From positions 1 through 64,000 of the forward strand of contig CALMGU010000093.1 in NCBI GenBank assembly GCA_937865685.1: a stretch of 64,000 bases of DNA, written 5' to 3'. The stretch is from an uncultured Alphaproteobacteria bacterium (GTDB taxonomy: Bacteria > Pseudomonadota > Alphaproteobacteria > Micropepsales > Micropepsaceae). This document shows positions 17,008-27,566 of the stretch, piece after piece. How positions within the stretch are numbered: the first letter of the stretch is position 1; every line of letters starts with the position of its first letter. A model generated the notes under the pieces. It worked only from the letters and a program-made list of their open reading frames with translations, had not been told where the DNA came from and ran no database searches. A program made the translations under genes and the position numbers.

Positions 17008-20000
17008 TCAAGGTGCCGGCGCCGGATCGGACGGCGCGGCGGCAGCCGGTTCCGGCGTGGCGGCTGTCGGCGTTGCGGCAGATGACGTCGCAGGTGGCGT
17101 GGCGGCTGTTGGCGTGGATGTTTCCTGCGCCGGTGCCGCAGCCGCTGCCGCCGGAGCGGAAACCGGTTCGGATGCAGCCGGCGCTGTCGCGGCCGGCTGC
17201 GCCTCGGCCGGATCGGTGTCACTCAGATAAGTATTGAACACCCATCCCTGTATGGAAGCCTGTGTGGCGGCGGCTTGCACCCCGGCACTTTGGGCGGCGG
17301 GAATTTCCACCCGGTCCCAGCTGCCGCGCGTTTCCAGCACGGCGACGGATGCACCACGTTTGAGATTGACGGTGATGGGGGCGCCGGTCGAAGGCTGATT
17401 GCGCACATTGATGGAACGCGTGGCGTATTTCAGCGGATGCACGGCCTTTGACTGGGTCGCGGCCGCCGCCGCGGCAACCGGCCGGACAGGCGCGGGCGCA
17501 TTATCCGATGGCAGGAACATGCCGCCCACGGTTTCGATCTGCCAGCGGATATTGTTGGGCAGCATCGCTTCCAGCTTGGGCAAGAGCAGCACGGCGGCGG
17601 CGGCGGCCATCACCACCACGCCGGCATCGCGCAGCAATCGCATATTCGCATAATCTTTTGCGGAGCGGCGCGGCTCTTCGCCCGCGCGATCGTCCATCGG
17701 CCGGCCGCCTATTTCCTGGCCGCTTGGCAGCGGCTGCCAGCGCGCGCCCGGACCTTCGCGCAACGTGCCCAGCCGGATCTGCTCCTGCGTCGCCTGGGTC
17801 TGCACCAGCGCCGCTTCGCGATCGACCAGGGTGGCGCGCAGGGTCTTGATCTCCCGCTCCAGCGAATGGACATATTCGTCCTCGCGCAGGCGGCCCTCCG
17901 CCGAACGGCGCTCCACATCCAGCGCCGTCTCCGCCGCCTCGGCGCGGGCATTGGCCTTGGCCAGCGCGCCCGCCGTTTCCTGCTCCCAGACCGCCTGCCC
18001 CGCTTTCAATTTCTCGCCGGCCGCGATATCCGCCGCCGCTTTCGCCGCCGCCATGTCCGCCTCCGCCACTTGCGCCTGCCGCGCCAGTTCTTCGCGCAGT
18101 TGCGCGATCTTCTGATCGCGTTCGCCGATCGCGGCGCTGGCATCGGCAGCAGCCAATGCCGTTTCCGCCGCCTGGCACCGCGCCGTCACCAGGGCCAGGG
18201 CTGCATCCGCCTCTGCCCGCCATTTCGCTTCGGCGTCTTTCAAGAGCTGCGCCCCATGCGCTTCGGCGGCAGCCTTGATGGCGGCGACTTCCCCTTCCGA
18301 CCGGTTGCGCAGAGATTCGAGCTGGTCCTGCAGGTGCCGGATTTCCTCGCTCCGGCCAGGCGTCGATCTCGCCGCCGCCAGTGCCGCATCCGCTTCCTGA
18401 AGGCGCGCGGTCATCGCCGCCATCGCTTCGTCGCCGCGCTTTCGCCATTCGGCTTCGGCGGCGGCCAGTGCTTCGGCCAGCTTCGCGTCGGCATCGGCCT
18501 TGAGACCGGCGATTTCGGTCTGGGATTCGAGCCGCTGACGCTCCAGCGCGGTGCTCAATTCCGCAACCTGGCTGTTGCGATGCGCACGAAGATCGGTAGC
18601 GCCTGTGGCTTGTTTCGCCGCCAGTTCCGCCAGCGCCCTGTCCGAACGTTCCTTCCATTCCGCCTCGGCAGTCTTGAGCCGCTCCGCCGCCTTGGCTTCC
18701 GCATCGGCTCTGGCTTGGGCGATATCGGTTTGCGTCTGACGTTTGAGGCGCTCCAGTTCGGCGCCAAGCTCGGCCAGCCGGTTGTCATGATGCGCCCGAA
18801 GATCATGCGTGCCCACCGACTGCTTGGCCGCCAGCTCCGCCAGCGCCTTGTCCGCGCGGGCCTGCCAATCGGTTTCAGCGGCTTTCAGACGCTCCGCCGC
18901 CTTTGCATTGGCGTCAGCCAGTTCGGCTTGCGCCTCCTGATGCTGCCGCTCCAGCTCGGCCCTGAGGCGCGCGATCTCACCGTCATGATCGGCGCGCGCG
19001 CCAGCCTGAGCGGTCTTGATGGCGTCCGCCACCTTGCTTTCCAGCATGGCCTTGGCGGCGGCGCCGTCGGCTTGCGCCCGGGCGCGCAGGCTTTCCAGTT
19101 CGCCGCGCAGCGCCGCCAGTTCGGCTTCGCCATCCTTGCGCAAGCCGGCTGCGGCGGCATCGGCGGTTTCGCGCATTGCCGCGAGTTCGGCCTGGACCTT
19201 GCTCAGGCGCGAAGCCCAATCCGCTTCAGCGGTTTTCAGCACCTCGCCGGCCTTGGCCTGCAAAGAGGCTTTGGTGGATGCGATTTCCGCTTCCCAATCG
19301 TTGCGCACGCGCTCCATCTGCGCGCGGGACGCGGCCAACTCGCTGTCGCGCGCCGCCAGCGCTTCCTTGGTGGCGGCGAATTCCTGGCGCATCAGCCGAA
19401 GCGCGGAAGCCTGCTGCTCGCTGGCGATTTCCGCCATGGCCTGGGCGCGCATCTCGCGCTCCTCGAGTCGGTTGCCGAACTGCTCTTCCAGCCGCGCTCT
19501 TTCGGCCTGCATCCGCTGGGCCTCGTCGCGCTTCCAGCGCGCTTGGGCTTCGGCCACCGCCATGTCGAGCTTCTGCTGCAGCATCACGCCCATCCGTTCG
19601 GCGGATTCGCGCAGCTGCGTCAGTTCGGTATCCCGCGCTTCCAGCAGCGATCTGAGCTTGTGCAGCTCGTTGCGGACATCGTCGGGCAAGGGCGCATTGG
19701 CGTGAGGAGACGCGGCGCTCTCGGCATCGCCCTTCACCGTGTAGTCGATCAACGCGATGGTAAAGGCTTCGGTTTCGTCCTTGGCGATCAGCCGGATCGC
19801 CAATGTGTGATCGCCGGCGATGCTCTTGGGCGCGAAATAAACCAAGTCTTCCAGCTCGTCGAGCAGGAGCGACCAGGACCCGTCGCCATTATTCTGCCCG
19901 GCGGAAAAGCGCGCCGATTGCGGCAGTTTTTCCACGCGCAACTGAAAACGCCCGCGTTTGCGATAGGCCAGGATCACCGGGCGCAGGTCGATGGGAATGG

Positions 20001-20103
20001 CGCGGCTGGACACCGAGGAATCCAGCGAGGCGCGCGCCGGCATGACGGCAAGTTCTTCCGCCGTTTCAGGGACTTTGCGTAATCTCGATGTGCCCGGTTT
20101 CAT
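17008..20103 (-). CDS. Giant coiled-coil membrane protein with N-terminal cadherin-like domain and C-terminal SH3b domain
   Basis: 1031 residues, no signal peptide. Residues about 30-125 form a beta-rich domain with SAGQNNGDGSWSLLLDEL and FAPKSIAGDHTLAIRL, resembling Ig/cadherin-like repeats of secreted adhesins. Residues about 140-760 are an Ala/Glu/Lys coiled coil containing W-anchored repeats of 70-78 residues. One transmembrane helix follows (GVVVMAAAAAVLLLP, near 825), then a bacterial SH3 domain (INVRNQPSTGAPITVNLKRG, SWDRVEI, GWVFNTYL, about 890-955) and a long Ala/Pro/Thr tail. The architecture suggests an envelope or polarity scaffold whose SH3b part touches peptidoglycan, but no family was recognised. 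It converges with the serine hydrolase gene. The start has only a weak ribosome site. Confidence 0.85.
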   Translation of the reverse strand: MKPGTSRLRKVPETAEELAVMPARASLDSSVSSRAIPIDLRPVILAYRKRGRFQLRVEKLPQSARFSAGQNNGDGSWSLLLDELEDLVYFAPKSIAGDHTLAIRLIAKDETEAFTIALIDYTVKGDAESAASPHANAPLPDDVRNELHKLRSLLEARDTELTQLRESAERMGVMLQQKLDMAVAEAQARWKRDEAQRMQAERARLEEQFGNRLEEREMRAQAMAEIASEQQASALRLMRQEFAATKEALAARDSELAASRAQMERVRNDWEAEIASTKASLQAKAGEVLKTAEADWASRLSKVQAELAAMRETADAAAAGLRKDGEAELAALRGELESLRARAQADGAAAKAMLESKVADAIKTAQAGARADHDGEIARLRAELERQHQEAQAELADANAKAAERLKAAETDWQARADKALAELAAKQSVGTHDLRAHHDNRLAELGAELERLKRQTQTDIAQARADAEAKAAERLKTAEAEWKERSDRALAELAAKQATGATDLRAHRNSQVAELSTALERQRLESQTEIAGLKADADAKLAEALAAAEAEWRKRGDEAMAAMTARLQEADAALAAARSTPGRSEEIRHLQDQLESLRNRSEGEVAAIKAAAEAHGAQLLKDAEAKWRAEADAALALVTARCQAAETALAAADASAAIGERDQKIAQLREELARQAQVAEADMAAAKAAADIAAGEKLKAGQAVWEQETAGALAKANARAEAAETALDVERRSAEGRLREDEYVHSLEREIKTLRATLVDREAALVQTQATQEQIRLGTLREGPGARWQPLPSGQEIGGRPMDDRAGEEPRRSAKDYANMRLLRDAGVVVMAAAAAVLLLPKLEAMLPNNIRWQIETVGGMFLPSDNAPAPVRPVAAAAAATQSKAVHPLKYATRSINVRNQPSTGAPITVNLKRGASVAVLETRGSWDRVEIPAAQSAGVQAAATQASIQGWVFNTYLSDTDPAEAQPAATAPAASEPVSAPAAAAAAPAQETSTPTAATPPATSSAATPTAATPEPAAAAPSDPAPAP
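17986..18867 (-). repeat. Tryptophan-anchored 70-78 residue coiled-coil repeat array
   Basis: Inside the coiled-coil gene, Trp codons lie at 18865-18867, 18655-18657, 18445-18447, 18220-18222 and 17986-17988, giving unit lengths of 70, 70, 75 and 78 residues. Each unit begins with a block like LKTAEAEWKERSDRALAELA. The first two intervals are exactly 210 bp and the most similar. A further, more diverged Trp block lies at 19216-19218, one degenerate unit upstream. Confidence 0.85.
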
Positions 20104-20341: not shown

Positions 20342-21307
20342 TTATTCCGCCGGTCCTTCGATGGCGACATGCAGCGCCGCCAGCCGTTCCAGCACACCGC
20401 CGCGCCGCAGAAGCGGCCCGATATCGATCACCGCGATGGACTTTCCCGGCGTGTTCAGCGCGGTGTCGATCGCGGACGTGTAATCGGCCACGTTGCGCTC
20501 ATTGATTCCGGCGACGGAATGAACCGCCGCGATGACGCAATCGGCTAGCCGCGATTCCGCGTAATTGGCTTTGACATTGCGGATGTCGCCGATCGCCCAG
20601 GCCTCGGCCGCCGGAATGGCATGGGTGAGCTGGCGGTCGATATCCTCCACCGATTGGGCAAGACAGGCGCGCTGCTGATCGAGACTGAGCTTGAGGACAT
20701 CTTCCGCCGCATCCAGAACTTCATAGCGCGCGATGGGCTTGGACGGCACGCGGCTGGCCCGCGCCAGCCGCGAGATGGGATCGCGCGGCTCGTCGCGGGT
20801 GAGATCGAGTTTGTCCTGCAGATCCTGGAACAGGCGCAGCGCCGCGCGCAGCGGCGTGTCGGTCCGGTAACGGCTCTCACTTTGATCGAGGCGCTCGCGA
20901 ATGGCGACGAAGCGGTTTCGAAGATCGGGCGAGAGGGACCCTTCCAAAGTTTGTCCCCGGGGCAGGCTGAGCTTGGATCCATTGGTGAGGAGGAACCAGG
21001 CGCCTTCGAACACGCCCACCGAAGGGCGCGGCGGCAACAGGATCGCATGCGTCCCGTCCAGCAATTCGGCCAGATAATCCTTGTTCCATTTCAGCCCGTC
21101 CGGCATGCCGCCGACCGTGCCCAGGATCCACACTTCGGAATCCCCGCGCGTCAGATGCCAGACCGCCGGGCCCGGCGCGGCCTTGACCTCGACCACTTCC
21201 GGCGTCCCCCAGATTTCCACCGGTTGCGCGGACACTGTCAGCGGCAGCGCAACAAAGCACAACGCCAGCGCAGCCAATGTCGTCCGTTTATAACACTTTG
21301 ACTTCAT
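20342..21307 (-). CDS. TraB/GumN-family (TIKI-like) protein
   Basis: A 321-residue secreted protein of the TraB/GumN family. A signal peptide (MKSKCYKRTTLAALALCFVALPLTVSAQ) is followed by the family start AVWHLTRGDSEVWILGTVGG, where homologues have LGTxH; the His is replaced by Gly-Gly here. Later come HAILLPPRPSVGVFEG and, at the C-terminus, GKSIAVIDIGPLLRRGGVLERL, matching the family GPxHLxGxxG end only loosely. TIKI/TraB proteins are candidate metalloproteases. Loss of the first His and of the His in the final motif suggests a catalytically altered member. I start it at the ATG at 21307; an ATG at 21325 is possible. Confidence 0.75.
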   Translation of the reverse strand: MKSKCYKRTTLAALALCFVALPLTVSAQPVEIWGTPEVVEVKAAPGPAVWHLTRGDSEVWILGTVGGMPDGLKWNKDYLAELLDGTHAILLPPRPSVGVFEGAWFLLTNGSKLSLPRGQTLEGSLSPDLRNRFVAIRERLDQSESRYRTDTPLRAALRLFQDLQDKLDLTRDEPRDPISRLARASRVPSKPIARYEVLDAAEDVLKLSLDQQRACLAQSVEDIDRQLTHAIPAAEAWAIGDIRNVKANYAESRLADCVIAAVHSVAGINERNVADYTSAIDTALNTPGKSIAVIDIGPLLRRGGVLERLAALHVAIEGPAE

Positions 21308-21553: not shown

Positions 21554-23431
21554 ATGAGCAGTCCATCGGTGAGTGAGCCGTCGCGGCAGACGCCCGGCGC
21601 AGGTGTAAAATTGTCGCCCGAGGCGGGCATGCCGCCCACCGATATCAAGAACCCGGATTACTTCCATAAGGTCGTGGACTGCCAATGGGCCTGCCCCGCC
21701 CATACGCCGGTGCCCGAATATATCCGCATGATCGCGGCGGGGCGTTATTCCGACGCCTATATGGTCAACTGGCATTCCAATGTTTTTCCCGGTGTTTTGG
21801 GCCGCACCTGCGACCGCCCCTGCGAGCCTGCCTGCCGGCGCGGCCGGGTGGAGGAAGTCACGGGCGCCCCGCAACCGGTGGCGATCTGCCGTCTGAAGCG
21901 CGTCGCCGCCGACAATAAGAGTGACGTCAAAGCGCGCATGCCGCGCCCCGCCCCGCAGAAGAACGGCAAGCGGGTGGCGCTGATCGGCGCGGGGCCCGCT
22001 TCCCTCACCGTGGCGCGCGATCTTCTGCCCCTGGGCTACACGGTCGTTCTTTATGACGGCGATGCGGCGGCGGGCGGCATGATGCGCACGCAGATTCCAA
22101 AATTCCGCCTGCCCGAAACCGTTCTGAACGAAGAGGTCGATTACATTCTCGATCTGGAGCCGGAACTCAGGCTGGGCCAGAAGGTCAATTCTCTCAAAGG
22201 GCTTCTGTCGGAAGATTACGACGCGATTTTCGTCGGCTGCGGCGCGCCGCGCGGCCGCGAGCTGGACATTCCCGGCCGCAAGGAAGCCAAGGCGAATATC
22301 CATATCGGCATCGACTGGCTGGCCTCGGTCTCGTTCGGCCATACCGACAAGATCGGCAAGCGGGTGATCGTTTTGGGCGGCGGCAACACCGCCATGGATT
22401 GCTGCCGCACGTCGCGGCGCCTGGGCGGAGACGAAGTGACGGTGGTGGTGCGCTCCGGATTCGAGGAAATGAAAGCCTCGCCCTGGGAAAAAGAAGACGC
22501 GATGCATGAAGGCATCCCGATCCACAATTTCCTGGTGCCCAAGGAATTCCTGCACGAGGACGGCAGGCTGACCGGCGTGCGCTTCGAGAAAGTGAAAGCC
22601 GAACGCGACGCCAAGGGCCGCCGCAATCTGGTGCCGTCGGGCGAGCCGGACACCATCCTGCAATGCGATGATGTGCTGGTGGCGGTGGGCCAGGAGAACG
22701 CCTTTCCCTGGATCGAGCGCGACATCGGGCTTCAGTTCGACAAATGGGACATGCCTGTGGTCGATCCCGCCACCATGCAATCGACCAATCCCAAAGTGTT
22801 CTTCGGCGGCGATGCCGCGTTCGGGCCCAAGAACATCATCTGGGCGGTGGCGCATGGCCATGACGCCGCCATCTCCATCGACCTCTATTGCCAGGGCAAG
22901 CCGGTGGGTCTGCGCCCGCCGCCGACGGTCAATCTTTCCTCTCAAAAAATGGGCATTCACGAATGGAGCTATGACAACGATATCTCCAACGACAATCGCT
23001 ACAAGGTGCCCCACGCGCCCATCGAAAAGACGCTCAAGAATGTGAAGATGGAAGTGGAGCTGGGCTTCGACGTGAAGCAAGCCTTCCTGGAAGCGCAGCG
23101 CTGCCTGAATTGCGACATCCAGACCGTGTTCGACACTCCGAAATGCATCGAATGCGATGCCTGTGTCGATATCTGCCCGATGGACTGCATCACCTTCACC
23201 GGCAATGACCCGGAAGAAGAGCTGCGCCTGCATTTGAGCGCGCCGGCCCTGCACGCAAGCCAGGACCTCTACATTTCATCCACGCTGAAGACCGGCCGGA
23301 TCATGGCCAAGGATGAAGATCTTTGCCTGCATTGCGGGCTTTGTGCCGAGCGCTGCCCCACCGGCGCCTGGGACATGCAGAAATTCCTGCTGGAAGCACC
23401 CAAGACGGGGTACGCATGCCAACACCGGTAA
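21554..23431 (+). CDS. GltD-like FAD/NAD(P) oxidoreductase fused to a 2[4Fe-4S] ferredoxin
   Basis: 625 residues. The N-terminal Fe-S domain has Cys in VDCQWACPAHTP and GRTCDRPCEPACRRG. A glutamate-synthase-small-subunit-type FAD/NAD(P) domain follows (GKRVALIGAGPASLTVARDL; second nucleotide loop VIVLGGGNTAMDCCR; C-terminal FAD loop VFFGGDAAFGPKNIIWAVAHG). The C-terminus carries two ferredoxin motifs, CIECDACVDICP and CLHCGLCAERCP. It should pass electrons between NAD(P)H and ferredoxin. It is the first gene of an operon with both subunits of a 2-oxoacid:ferredoxin oxidoreductase and overlaps the next gene by 16 bases, so it probably serves as that enzyme's redox partner. The ribosome site is weak. 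Confidence 0.9.
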   Translation: MSSPSVSEPSRQTPGAGVKLSPEAGMPPTDIKNPDYFHKVVDCQWACPAHTPVPEYIRMIAAGRYSDAYMVNWHSNVFPGVLGRTCDRPCEPACRRGRVEEVTGAPQPVAICRLKRVAADNKSDVKARMPRPAPQKNGKRVALIGAGPASLTVARDLLPLGYTVVLYDGDAAAGGMMRTQIPKFRLPETVLNEEVDYILDLEPELRLGQKVNSLKGLLSEDYDAIFVGCGAPRGRELDIPGRKEAKANIHIGIDWLASVSFGHTDKIGKRVIVLGGGNTAMDCCRTSRRLGGDEVTVVVRSGFEEMKASPWEKEDAMHEGIPIHNFLVPKEFLHEDGRLTGVRFEKVKAERDAKGRRNLVPSGEPDTILQCDDVLVAVGQENAFPWIERDIGLQFDKWDMPVVDPATMQSTNPKVFFGGDAAFGPKNIIWAVAHGHDAAISIDLYCQGKPVGLRPPPTVNLSSQKMGIHEWSYDNDISNDNRYKVPHAPIEKTLKNVKMEVELGFDVKQAFLEAQRCLNCDIQTVFDTPKCIECDACVDICPMDCITFTGNDPEEELRLHLSAPALHASQDLYISSTLKTGRIMAKDEDLCLHCGLCAERCPTGAWDMQKFLLEAPKTGYACQHR

Positions 23432-25245
23432 AATCGATCAACGACTTTGTCGTCAAATTCGCCAATGTGAACGGCTCCGGCTCGGCGTCCGCTAATGAGA
23501 TGTTCGCCCGCTCGATCCTGCGCATGGGCGTGCCGGTGGCCTCGCGCAACATTTTCCCGTCCAATATTCAGGGCCTGCCCACCTGGTATGAAGTGCGGGT
23601 CTCCGGCCATGGCTGGCTGGGACGGCGGGGCGGCGTCGACCTGATGGTGGCGATGAACCCCCAGACCTGGGACAAGGATGTCGCCTCGGTCGACCCGGGC
23701 GGCTATCTCTTCTACGATTCCTCGCGGCCCATCCCCCAATCGAAATTCCGCGACGACATCAACGTCATCCGCATGCCGCTGACCGAGATCTGCAACGCGG
23801 TCTATAGCGATCCGCGCCAGCGCCAGCTGTTCAAGAACATCATCTATATCGGCGCGCTGGCCCAGCTGTTGGGGATCGAGCCGGATGTGCTCGAAACCCT
23901 GATCGGCGAACAATATAAAAGCAAGCCCGCTTTGATCGCGCCCAACCATCAGGCGCTGCGCATGGGCTATGATTATGCGCGGGACAATCTGGCGGGCGCC
24001 TGCGGCCTGAAGGTAACACGCGCCGATGGCGTGAAGGACCGCATCTTCGTCAACGGAAATGACGCGGCGGGGCTGGGCTGCGTCTATGGCGGCGCCACCG
24101 TGGCGGCCTGGTATCCCATCACGCCTTCCACTTCCGTCGCCGAGGCCTTTGGCAAACATTGCAAGAAATACCGGGTCGATGCCGCGACCGGCAAAAACAA
24201 ATTCGCCATCGTTCAGGCGGAAGACGAAATCTCCGCCATCGGCGCGGTGATCGGCGCGGGCTGGAACGGGGCGCGGTCTTTTACCGCCACCTCCGGCCCG
24301 GGCGTTTCCTTGATGCAGGAATTTCTCGGCCTGGCCTATTTCGCGGAAATCCCCATGGTGCTGATCGATGTGCAGCGGGGCGGCCCCTCCACCGGCATGC
24401 CCACCCGCACCCAGCAGGCCGATCTGATCCTGGCCGCCTATGCCAGCCATGGCGACACCAAGCATGTGATGCTGTTTCCGCAGGACCCCAAGGAATTGTT
24501 CGAATTCACCGCCCGGGCCTTCGATCTGGCGGAGCGGTTGCAGACGCCCATCTTCGTGATGGAAGACTTGGACATCGGCATGAACGAATGGCTGTGCGAG
24601 CCTTTCGCCTGGGACGATGCCCGCAAATATGACCGCGGCAAGATCATGACCGCGGAGGATCTGGATGCGGGCAAGCTGTTCGGCCGTTATCTGGACGTGG
24701 ACGGCGACGCCATCGGCTATCGCACCCTTCCGGGCACCCATCCCAGCAAGGGCGCTTATTTCACCCGGGGCTCCAGCCACGACAAGATGGCCAAATACAC
24801 CGAGGAAGGCGACGCCTACCAGGAAGTGATGCAGCGGCTCTTACGCAAATTCGAAACCGCCAAATCCCTGGTCCCGGCGCCCGTGATTCATCAGGCGGCG
24901 GAGAAGACCGGCTATGGCGTGATCTATTTCGGTTCGACCGCGCCGGCCATGGACGAAGCCTTGGCGGCGCTGAAAGAAGAAGGCCTGCATCTGAACACGC
25001 TCAGGCTGCGCGCCTTCCCCTTCTCGGAAGCGGTGAGCGACTTCATCAACGCCCATGAGCAGATTTTCCTGGTGGAACAGAACCGCGACGCCCAGATGCG
25101 CATGCTTCTGGTCAATGAATGCGGCGTCGATCCCGCCCGCTTCATTTCCATCCTGAACTACGACGGCACCCCGATCACGGCGCGCTTCATCATCAGCCAG
25201 ATCGCCGGGCGCATGACCATGACATCGAGGGAAGCCGCCGAATGA
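23416..25245 (+). CDS. korA: 2-oxoacid:ferredoxin oxidoreductase, fused gamma-alpha subunit
   Basis: 609 residues. The first part is the gamma domain (FANVNGSGSASANEMFARSI, GWLGRRGGVDLMVAMNP). From about residue 210 it is the alpha (pyrimidine-binding) domain: VNGNDAAGLGCVYGGATVAA, YPITPSTSVAEAF, AEDEISAIGAVIGAGWNGAR, TATSGPGVSLMQEFLGLAYF and RGGPSTGMPTRTQQADL. Such subunits pair with a TPP-binding beta subunit and decarboxylate 2-oxoacids (2-oxoglutarate, pyruvate or branched) to acyl-CoA with ferredoxin as acceptor. The start at ATG 23416 follows GGGG and overlaps the upstream gene. The stop overlaps the beta-subunit start (ATGA). The 2-oxoglutarate assignment is by similarity of layout only. 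Confidence 0.9.
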   Translation: MPTPVKSINDFVVKFANVNGSGSASANEMFARSILRMGVPVASRNIFPSNIQGLPTWYEVRVSGHGWLGRRGGVDLMVAMNPQTWDKDVASVDPGGYLFYDSSRPIPQSKFRDDINVIRMPLTEICNAVYSDPRQRQLFKNIIYIGALAQLLGIEPDVLETLIGEQYKSKPALIAPNHQALRMGYDYARDNLAGACGLKVTRADGVKDRIFVNGNDAAGLGCVYGGATVAAWYPITPSTSVAEAFGKHCKKYRVDAATGKNKFAIVQAEDEISAIGAVIGAGWNGARSFTATSGPGVSLMQEFLGLAYFAEIPMVLIDVQRGGPSTGMPTRTQQADLILAAYASHGDTKHVMLFPQDPKELFEFTARAFDLAERLQTPIFVMEDLDIGMNEWLCEPFAWDDARKYDRGKIMTAEDLDAGKLFGRYLDVDGDAIGYRTLPGTHPSKGAYFTRGSSHDKMAKYTEEGDAYQEVMQRLLRKFETAKSLVPAPVIHQAAEKTGYGVIYFGSTAPAMDEALAALKEEGLHLNTLRLRAFPFSEAVSDFINAHEQIFLVEQNRDAQMRMLLVNECGVDPARFISILNYDGTPITARFIISQIAGRMTMTSREAAE

Positions 25246-26297
25246 CCTATATCGTCAAGCCCAAGCTGCGCCATCCCGCCTTGCCCGTGAACAAGCTGGG
25301 CTTTACCCATCGCGATTACGAAGGCACGGTGTCCACCCTGTGCGCGGGCTGCGGCCATGACTCGATTTCCGCCGCCATCATCCAGGCCTGTTTCGAACTC
25401 GCCATCGAGCCGCACCGGGTCGCCAAATTGTCCGGCATCGGCTGCTCGTCCAAGACTCCCACCTATTTCCTGGGCCAGAGCCATGGCTTCAATTCGGTGC
25501 ATGGCCGCATGCCGTCCGTGCTGACGGGCGCCAATATGGCCAACAAGGATTTGATCTATCTGGGCGTGTCGGGCGACGGCGACAGCGCCTCGATCGGGCT
25601 GGGCCAGTTCGTGCATTGCATCCGGCGCGGCGTGAACATGGTCTATATCTGCGAGAATAATGGCGTCTATGGCCTGACCAAGGGCCAATTCTCCGCCACC
25701 GCCGACAAGGGCTCAAAAAGCAAGGGCGGCGCCAGCAACATGGACACGCCGCTCGATCTCGCCAGCATGGCGATGATGGTGGGCGCCAGTTTCGTTGGGC
25801 GCAGCTTTTCCGGCGACAAGGAGCAGATGGTGCCCCTGATCATGGCGGCGATGCGCCATCCCGGCCCCTGCTTCATCGATATCGTCAGCCCCTGCGTCGC
25901 CTTCAACAATCATGCCGGCTCGACCAAGGCTTATGATTTCGTGCGCGCCCATAACGAAGCGGTGAACCGGCTGGACATCATGGAGCCGCGCGATCCCATC
26001 ACGGTGGAATATGCGCCGGGCACCACCGAGGAAGTGGCGCTGCATGACGGCTCGTCGCTCAGGCTGGCCAAGCTGGACGCCGATTACGATCCCAGCGACC
26101 GCATCATGGCGATGGCCTACCTGCAGGCCAAGGCCGCGCGGAATGAATTGGTGACCGGCCTGATCTATATGGACCGCCACGCCACCGACATGCACGCCAA
26201 TCTCAACACCGTCGATGTGCCGCTGAACGGGCTCAGCGAAAAGGATCTCTGTCCCGGCAGCAAGGCACTGGACGCATTCAACGCATCGCATCGCTGA
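25242..26297 (+). CDS. korB: 2-oxoacid:ferredoxin oxidoreductase, beta subunit
   Basis: A 351-residue TPP-binding subunit. The thiamine/Mg motif is SGDGDSASIGLGQF to ICENNGVYGLTKGQ. Cys residues for a [4Fe-4S] cluster are in TLCAGCGHDS, GIGCSSKT and SPCVAFNNH, as in the single-cluster beta subunits. It has no signal and is cytoplasmic. It is translationally coupled to the alpha subunit through an ATGA overlap. With the upstream GltD-ferredoxin fusion it forms a complete electron path from 2-oxoacid to NAD(P). In an aerobic alphaproteobacterium this enzyme would need oxygen tolerance. Confidence 0.92.
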   Translation: MTYIVKPKLRHPALPVNKLGFTHRDYEGTVSTLCAGCGHDSISAAIIQACFELAIEPHRVAKLSGIGCSSKTPTYFLGQSHGFNSVHGRMPSVLTGANMANKDLIYLGVSGDGDSASIGLGQFVHCIRRGVNMVYICENNGVYGLTKGQFSATADKGSKSKGGASNMDTPLDLASMAMMVGASFVGRSFSGDKEQMVPLIMAAMRHPGPCFIDIVSPCVAFNNHAGSTKAYDFVRAHNEAVNRLDIMEPRDPITVEYAPGTTEEVALHDGSSLRLAKLDADYDPSDRIMAMAYLQAKAARNELVTGLIYMDRHATDMHANLNTVDVPLNGLSEKDLCPGSKALDAFNASHR

Positions 26298-26663: not shown

Positions 26664-27566
26664 ATGACCGCAGCAGCCGACATCGCCTGGCCGATCAAGA
26701 CGCGCGAGATTCACAACCACCATATGAATTCGACCGTCTGGAACGATTTCAAGTTCCGCGACGATGACATTGTGATCGCGACTTACGGCAAATCCGGCAC
26801 CACCTGGATGCAGCAGATCCTGGCGCAGTTGATCTTCAACGGCGCGGAAGGGATCGATGTTTCGCCGCTCTCGCCCTGGCTTGATCTGCGCGTGATGCCG
26901 CCCGAAGCCATCGCCAGCCTCGAGGACCAGACTCATCGCCGCTTCGTCAAGACCCATCTGCCGGTCGATGCCCTGGTCTTCTCGCCACGCGCCAAATATC
27001 TCTATGTCGGGCGCGACGGCCGCGACGCGGTGTGGAGTCTCTATAACCACCATGCCAACGCCAACGAACATTTCTACGAAGCGCTGAACAATGCGCCCGG
27101 CCGGGTCGGCCCGCCAATCGAGCCGCCGCCGGATTCCATTCCCGATTATTTCCGCCGCTGGCTGGAGGAGGATGGCTATCCCTTCTGGTCCTTCTGGGAA
27201 AATCTGCGCTCCTGGTGGGCGATACGGCATTTGCCCAACGTCAAGCTGGTGCATTTCAACGAATTGAAGAAGGACTTGCCCGGCTCGATTCGCGGCATCG
27301 CCGCATTCCTGGACATTCCCATCGACGAAGCGAAATTCCCCGCCATCGTCTCCCATTGCGGCTTCGACTATATGAAGTCCCATGCCGAAGAGGTGACACC
27401 GCTGCGCGGTGCCATGTGGAACGGCGGCGCCAAGACATTCATCAACAAGGGCACCAATGGCCGCTGGCGCGACATGCTGACGGCCGGCGATATCGCCCGG
27501 TATGAAGCCAAGGTACGGGCCGAACTGGGCGAAGACTGCGCCCGCTGGCTGGCTGGCGTCGCTTAG
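26664..27566 (+). CDS. Sulfotransferase (PAPS-dependent, cytosolic SULT type)
   Basis: A 300-residue sulfotransferase. The PAPS 5'-phosphosulfate loop is ATYGKSGTTWMQQ (41-50), the 3'-phosphate region is KYLYVGRDGRDAVWSLYNHH, and the C-terminal PAPS loop is FINKGTNGRWRD. These enzymes move sulfate from PAPS to hydroxyl or amine groups of small molecules. The length and motif order match SULT-type enzymes. There is a strong ribosome site (GAGGGGGG), overlapped on its upstream side by a 19-bp palindrome. No sulfate-activation genes are adjacent. The acceptor is unknown. Confidence 0.92.
   Translation: MTAAADIAWPIKTREIHNHHMNSTVWNDFKFRDDDIVIATYGKSGTTWMQQILAQLIFNGAEGIDVSPLSPWLDLRVMPPEAIASLEDQTHRRFVKTHLPVDALVFSPRAKYLYVGRDGRDAVWSLYNHHANANEHFYEALNNAPGRVGPPIEPPPDSIPDYFRRWLEEDGYPFWSFWENLRSWWAIRHLPNVKLVHFNELKKDLPGSIRGIAAFLDIPIDEAKFPAIVSHCGFDYMKSHAEEVTPLRGAMWNGGAKTFINKGTNGRWRDMLTAGDIARYEAKVRAELGEDCARWLAGVA

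Follow-up and report, generated by a model that had tools for sequence, protein, structure and literature searches.

The 64,000-nucleotide stretch of contig CALMGU010000093.1 analysed here (assembly GCA_937865685.1, an uncultured alphaproteobacterium of the Micropepsaceae), called the window below, contains a gene for a 1031-residue protein whose two ends would normally be found in different surroundings. The N-terminal domain resembles modules of secreted adhesins, the C-terminal domain is of the SH3b type expected in the periplasm, and a single transmembrane helix separates them. Bacterial cadherin/immunoglobulin (Ig)-like adhesin modules are extracellular parts, often stiffened by Ca2+. According to the initial annotation of this locus, one of the two domains must be used in an unexpected compartment, which raises the question of which domain it is and what it does there. 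The reading preferred here, with a probability of roughly 0.55, is that the protein is a trans-envelope scaffold with its N-terminus inside and its C-terminus outside, tying a cytoplasmic partner to peptidoglycan and using a repurposed adhesin module as its head. Sequence comparison gives good support to the proposed adaptation of an extracellular adhesion module to the cytoplasm.

The N-terminal domain and its adhesin relatives

The scaffold family was examined in 39 members from 39 genomes of the class, the window protein included. All 36 complete members, the window protein again among them, have the same order of parts: the N-terminal domain, an Ala/Glu-rich helical region, one transmembrane helix and the SH3b domain. 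Three members (L122, L127 and L128) are cut by contig ends and were omitted from the complete set.

A profile of the N-terminal domain aligns with one of 24 tandem adhesin modules over 121 columns (hhalign probability 98.9, E 1.3e-17), and many genome matches of a domain profile built from 14 scaffold sequences sit in tandem within giant open reading frames (ORFs) of up to 6679 residues. By this comparison the domain is homologous to the tandem cadherin/Ig-like modules of giant adhesins, as the initial annotation had surmised from resemblance. The homology runs over the extender module (cadherin/Ig-like, NGDGTW type) of the giant RTX adhesins of type I secretion systems. The scaffold differs from these in having one module, at the N-terminus, with the triad of acidic residues replaced and with a rod, a transmembrane helix and an SH3b domain joined to it. 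The tandem arrangement within a giant protein is absent, there being one module in the window protein and one match per genome within its genus and family.

AlphaFold2 models, which had been suggested as a check on this resemblance, were made from five close sequences and reached a predicted local distance difference test (pLDDT) score of 63 for residues 1–136 and 74 for the trimmed domain. The best structural match of the longer model was the Ig-like pilin MyfA (Z 6.9). For the trimmed model it was the Ig-like pilin PsaA (VIA Z 6.3), with an Aeromonas RTX-like domain also matched (Z 5.5, 18% identity). Alpha-dystroglycan, at Z 5.7 and 5.3, and protocadherins, at Z 4.9 and 4.4, also stood below the best matches. 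Since all of these Z scores are below 8, they agree with an Ig/cadherin-like sandwich without proving it. Foldseek gave no match under E 0.001. A sequence search of the PDB with the domain profile gave chance-like matches only, the best by whole-sequence E (1e-4) being RecA fusions that score through repeats, each single stretch having an E near 1000. No Pfam family covers the domain except for a chance-like FAF match in 3 of 14 sequences (best E 0.032).

A tree built on 97 columns from 53 adhesin modules and the 39 scaffold domains separates the two groups by a single branch, with a support of 99/93 from a bootstrap that had not converged. This split is compatible with one capture of an adhesin module. 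The adhesin modules have mostly Asp, Asp and Glu at columns 46, 48 and 51, the DxDGSE loop, and all three are acidic in 36 of the 46 non-redundant modules in which these columns are filled. The set was gathered with the profile from 14 scaffold domains and so samples the modules near those; it comprises 115 modules, 85 of them with the triad columns filled and 64 of these 85 all acidic, and the redundancy filter leaves 53, of which 46 have the columns filled. The scaffold domains have no acidic residue at any of the three columns in 37 of 39 cases, the window protein included.

The position of the acidic loop is taken by a basic one of the pattern [PA]-[YFH]-[RK]-[KR]-x-G-R. At least two Lys or Arg residues are found in columns 47–52 of 37 of the 39 scaffold domains, whereas none of the 85 adhesin modules whose triad columns are filled has more than one. 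The mean net charge is -0.4 for the scaffold domains and -10.5 for the adhesin modules (88 modules). No basic loop is present in L061 and L062, the two members most distant from the rest, so the loop may be a later gain. In the scaffold branch R104 and E58 are invariant (39/39), R56 (37/39) and R65 (35/39) are nearly so, and these two together with D82, E83 and Y89 fall between 34 and 37 of 39; conservation of these residues is not seen in the adhesin modules. Judged by alignment and tree, the N-terminal domain forms a branch of its own that lacks the acidic triad, and is not an ordinary adhesin domain that has been misplaced.

The acidic triad of the adhesin modules probably binds Ca2+. The excerpted text of PMC7493085 places the Ca2+ of RTX adhesins in the linkers between modules. 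If the triad is a calcium site, its loss is the change expected from a move to the low-calcium cytoplasm. A longer history can be offered tentatively, and as a whole it is somewhat improbable: a secreted, probably calcium-dependent module would have been captured once in the Alphaproteobacteria, stripped of its acidic ligands and given a basic loop, and would now be the cytoplasmic head of a rod that ties a structure to peptidoglycan.

Membrane topology, SH3b domain and rod

Kyte-Doolittle windows, by which all membrane helices were called, show the window protein to have a single membrane segment and no second, in keeping with the single helix of the initial annotation. Across the family no second segment rises above a mean hydropathy of 1.6 except in L117 and the truncated L122, where an extra peak above this value lies in the N-terminal part; weaker peaks (1.2–1.6) occur in other members. 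A signal peptide had also been reported as missing. The possibility of an overlooked one was considered and rejected, as a TGA codon lies in frame immediately 5' of the ATG and no upstream signal peptide could therefore have been missed.

Lys and Arg are richer on the N-terminal than on the C-terminal side of the helix in 34 of the 37 proteins that have one (15 residues on each side; L122 and L127, with no helix within the contig, are omitted), and the count is again 34 of 37 with windows of 18 and of 20. This suggests that the N-terminal domain and the rod are cytoplasmic and that the SH3b domain is periplasmic. The SH3b assignment of the initial annotation agrees with Pfam, the window protein matching PF08239 (SH3_3) at 28.2 bits against a gathering cut-off of 27. 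SH3_3 is found in all 36 complete members at E ≤ 0.01, the comparison of score with cut-off applying to the window protein only. With positive flanks placing the N-terminal domain inside and the SH3b domain in the periplasm, the displaced domain is predicted to be the adhesin module. The proposal that one domain is used in an unexpected compartment would thus hold for this module, but what is displaced would be the triad-less branch described above.

The Ala/Glu-rich region of the window protein has a helical periodicity of 3.65, with a power of 2.14, whereas its shuffles reach no more than 1.64. Best periods lie between 3.47 and 3.75 across the 20 rows analysed, in which one protein is entered twice and the coil is 202–703 residues long; the frequency grid used for the shuffles was coarser than that used for the real sequences, which slightly favours the latter. 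If the rod of the window protein were one continuous helix, it could reach about 100 nm (675 residues at 0.15 nm).

The five Trp residues of the window protein are spaced by exactly 70, 70, 75 and 78 residues, as first reported. These intervals had been taken as the unit of a repeat, and in this the family disagrees, its lattice being one of 15 residues. The 36 complete proteins contain 357 pairs of adjacent Trp, and in 147 of these the spacing is exactly 15, where 500 shuffles gave a mean of 5.7 and a maximum of 14; at least one such pair is present in 30 of the 36. The window protein has none. The residues most common after Trp are Ala at +4, Leu at +8, Ala at +11 and the next Trp at +15, with Ser and Glu also frequent near +4; before Trp they are Ala at -4, Leu at -7 and Ala or Glu at -11. 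Such a pattern can be read as a coiled-coil repeat of 15 residues in four turns. The spacing of 70–78 in the window protein is, from its relatives, best read as a worn form of the 15-residue lattice. In L061 (7743–10025, plus strand) a nearly pure 15-residue Trp repeat extends over most of the rod, with 26 Trp in the coil, most of them exactly 15 or 30 apart, and this protein would lend itself well to structural studies of 15/4 coiled coils. For the tetramerisation domain of VASP, a title cited in PMC4721544 indicates a right-handed coiled coil with a repeat of 15 residues. VASP contributes a eukaryotic tetramer domain, and no homology with the scaffold is claimed.

Proposed function, known analogues and alternatives

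In the preferred reading the C-terminal SH3b domain would grip peptidoglycan in the periplasm, and the one helix would span the inner membrane and fix the protein in it. The long helical rod, on its 15-residue coiled-coil repeat, would project into the cytoplasm and would probably oligomerise or form bundles. At its tip would sit a domain that descends from a secreted cadherin-like adhesin module but no longer depends on calcium, and that would bind a cytoplasmic partner through its new basic loop and conserved Arg and Glu residues. In this way the protein would anchor some cytoplasmic structure, or a group of client proteins, at the cell wall. If true, this would be a clear case of a domain switching compartment with an acidic loop turned basic, and would reveal what a cadherin/Ig-like fold requires to function in the absence of calcium. 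The analysis also points to a family of candidate scaffolds with a link to the wall, from a group of Alphaproteobacteria represented here mostly by metagenome-assembled genomes.

The layout is of a known kind and the cytoplasmic head is the unusual part. The nearest working analogue is Csd5 of Helicobacter pylori, with PodJ of Caulobacter crescentus second. In the excerpt of PMC9507126, Csd5 has one transmembrane helix, a periplasmic SH3 domain that binds peptidoglycan and a cytoplasmic N-terminal part that binds a partner, the bactofilin CcmA. The same excerpt describes Csd5 as unique to Helicobacter and names no adhesin-like head or long rod for it. The polar organisers FimV and HubP are likened to the scaffold through a periplasmic LysM-like domain, a membrane helix and a large cytoplasmic part. 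They differ in that a TPR domain forms the C-terminal end of the cytoplasmic part, and the portion of PMC12918733 drawn on for these proteins names no adhesin module.

Several observations weigh against the trans-envelope scaffold. The fold models are moderate, and the structural Z scores lie in a range that the tool rates as a common arrangement. Ca2+ binding by the acidic triad is an assumption, and not every bacterial SH3b domain binds peptidoglycan. The helical periodicity is not above the shuffles in 5 of the 20 rows (L021, L022, L023, L027 and L028), and 3 of the 37 proteins are without the positive-inside bias (one tie and two reversed, with windows of 15 and of 18). No scaffold match is present in 43 of 69 genomes of the same genus (E ≤ 1e-5), therefore the gene is not essential to the lifestyle. 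Clusters of neighbouring ORFs are common to at most 5 of the 39 loci, all of them closest relatives, which suggests that the scaffold gene stands alone. Bactofilin does not track it within the genus.

The same topology would serve a client hub of the PodJ type, in which the rod concentrates signalling or division proteins at one site and peptidoglycan binding is for placement only. PodJ, as described in part of PMC9684454, has a cytoplasmic part rich in coiled coils, one passage through the membrane and a periplasmic part that binds peptidoglycan, a layout with which the predicted domains and topology of the scaffold agree, and the wide range of coil lengths would suit a loosely constrained hub. 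The periplasmic part of PodJ consists of a repeat domain and a peptidoglycan-binding domain, not an SH3b domain, and that description mentions neither a cadherin-like or other such N-terminal folded module nor a Trp lattice. PodJ is moreover likened to the scaffold by description and not by sequence, and a hub of this type is considered unlikely. A tether from the wall to the nucleoid or to lipid, with the basic loop binding DNA or acidic phospholipid, would make use of the Lys and Arg residues of columns 47–52 and of the conserved R104, E58, R56 and R65. The near-zero net charge of the domain means that a strong general affinity for nucleic acid is not expected, and L061 and L062 do without the loop, which leaves such a tether a rather poor prospect.

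The head could also have no binding role and be an inert cap or a folding seed for the rod, as would befit a single small domain at a rod end that has lost the acidic residues of its ancestor. The near-invariance of the branch-specific R56, E58, R65, D82, E83, Y89 and R104 (34 to 39 of 39) instead suggests selection for an interaction or for a new stabilising network, so that an inert cap is likewise improbable. Least credible is a protein that is inverted or secreted, with the N-terminal domain and rod brought outside by an inverted helix or by type I secretion. RTX adhesins also lack N-terminal signal peptides, and the module is otherwise extracellular. Export is opposed by the conserved helix with its more positive N-terminal flank, by the SH3b domain that follows the helix and by the loss of the acidic triad.

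The gene, its distribution and its neighbours

The coordinates of the gene and of the parts of its product are given in Table 1. Domain boundaries are approximate for the N-terminal domain, and the C-terminal tail is, by eye, shorter in many other members of the family.

Table 1. The scaffold gene of the window and the parts of the protein it encodes
Feature	Position in window	Strand	Basis
Scaffold gene, 1031 aa	17008..20103	minus	ORF with ATG start; dN/dS 0.19-0.36
N-terminal domain, residues 33-125, relative of cadherin/Ig-like adhesin modules, predicted cytoplasmic	19729..20007	minus	profile homology, tree, AlphaFold2 models
Basic loop AYRKRGR, residues 46-52, at the position of the adhesin acidic DxDGSE loop	19948..19968	minus	alignment columns
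NNGDGSW motif, residues 71-77	19873..19893	minus	sequence
Ala/Glu-rich helical rod, residues ~139-812, periodicity 3.65	17668..19689	minus	boundaries by eye
Five Trp, residues 413, 483, 553, 628, 706	17986..18867	minus	sequence
Single transmembrane helix, residues 823-841	17581..17637	minus	Kyte-Doolittle; flanking Lys/Arg 4 before, 2 after (15 residues each)
SH3b domain, residues 898-961, predicted periplasmic	17221..17412	minus	PF08239, E 2.2e-6
Ala/Pro/Thr-rich C-terminal tail, residues 962-1031	17011..17220	minus	sequence

Comparison with four relatives gives ratios of nonsynonymous to synonymous substitution (dN/dS) of 0.19, 0.21, 0.30 and 0.36, as under purifying selection. A 738-residue ORF lies opposite the gene (17866..20082, plus strand). 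The best antisense frame has 1, 1, 2 and 2 stops in the four relatives, so stops alone do not strongly exclude it. A spurious or antisense origin of the scaffold frame was nevertheless rejected, the codon-position pattern and dN/dS favouring the minus-strand gene. On these grounds the scaffold gene is real and conserved, and the opposite frame looks like a shadow of high GC content.

By taxonomy 36 members belong to the family of the window genome and three to other families (genomes G243, G219 and G107). The N-terminal domain profile matches 26 of 69 genomes of the genus at E ≤ 1e-5 and 36 of 96 genomes of the family at E ≤ 1e-15, in each case with one match per genome. The search of the class covered 385 genomes and gave matches at E ≤ 1e-5 in 37, with many of these matches recurring along an ORF. 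Extended loci from 13 of these 37 (15 loci) comprise 5 scaffolds and 10 that are adhesin-like or unclassified; the loci of the window genome and of G031 were examined besides. In the phylum 7 of 398 genomes matched at E ≤ 1e-15, the window genome included. Loci from five others are tandem adhesin-like arrays, and G483 was judged to be of the same kind from nine matches in one 4350-residue frame. Both the class and the phylum search scored the best 10 candidates per genome, therefore distant scaffolds may have been missed.

Four named records (L015–L018) are metagenome-assembled genomes labelled Alphaproteobacteria (three) or Proteobacteria (one) that represent genomes of the same genus; L017 is identical to L020 (G014), and the other three were matched by ORF length. 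No relative was found in viral contigs and no match in PADLOC or PHROGs; the one match in NCBIfam, to EntC (E 0.062), is weak and far under its cut-off. Among the titles and opening parts of abstracts listed for the open literature, with subscription papers uncovered, there was no description of the architecture, and the family is apparently undescribed so far.

One further protein touches on the use of the module. Genome G219, which encodes the scaffold L061 with its predicted cytoplasmic head, also encodes a 922-residue protein (L067, 6783–9548, minus strand) with a long low-complexity N-terminal part, one hydrophobic segment, then a lone NGDGSW module, predicted to lie on the periplasmic side, and TPR/Sel1-like sequence. 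These features were recognised by eye, and the protein has no Pfam match.

No partner gene or operon emerged from the clusters of neighbouring ORFs at the 39 loci, in lists where many ORFs are antisense shadows. A gene of the TraB/PrgY/GumN family lies upstream of the scaffold gene in the window (20342..21166, minus strand). It was rejected as a partner, being present in 59 of 69 genomes of the genus and adjoining the scaffold gene in five close relatives only. Bactofilin was likewise tried as a co-occurring partner and gave no signal, with 26 of 26 genus genomes that have the scaffold carrying it and 41 of 43 of those that do not. It is therefore a possible but not a specific partner. In one genome (G434, contig C333, locus L119) the scaffold and bactofilin genes are about 2.4 kb apart on the same strand, a proximity that could be due to chance, since it was met once in 26 genus genomes.

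Elsewhere in the window, positions 21554–26297 (plus strand) hold a set resembling 2-oxoacid:ferredoxin oxidoreductase, with a flavin/Fe-S subunit, a POR/POR_N fusion and a thiamine pyrophosphate subunit. A sulfotransferase-like ORF follows it at 26664–27566.

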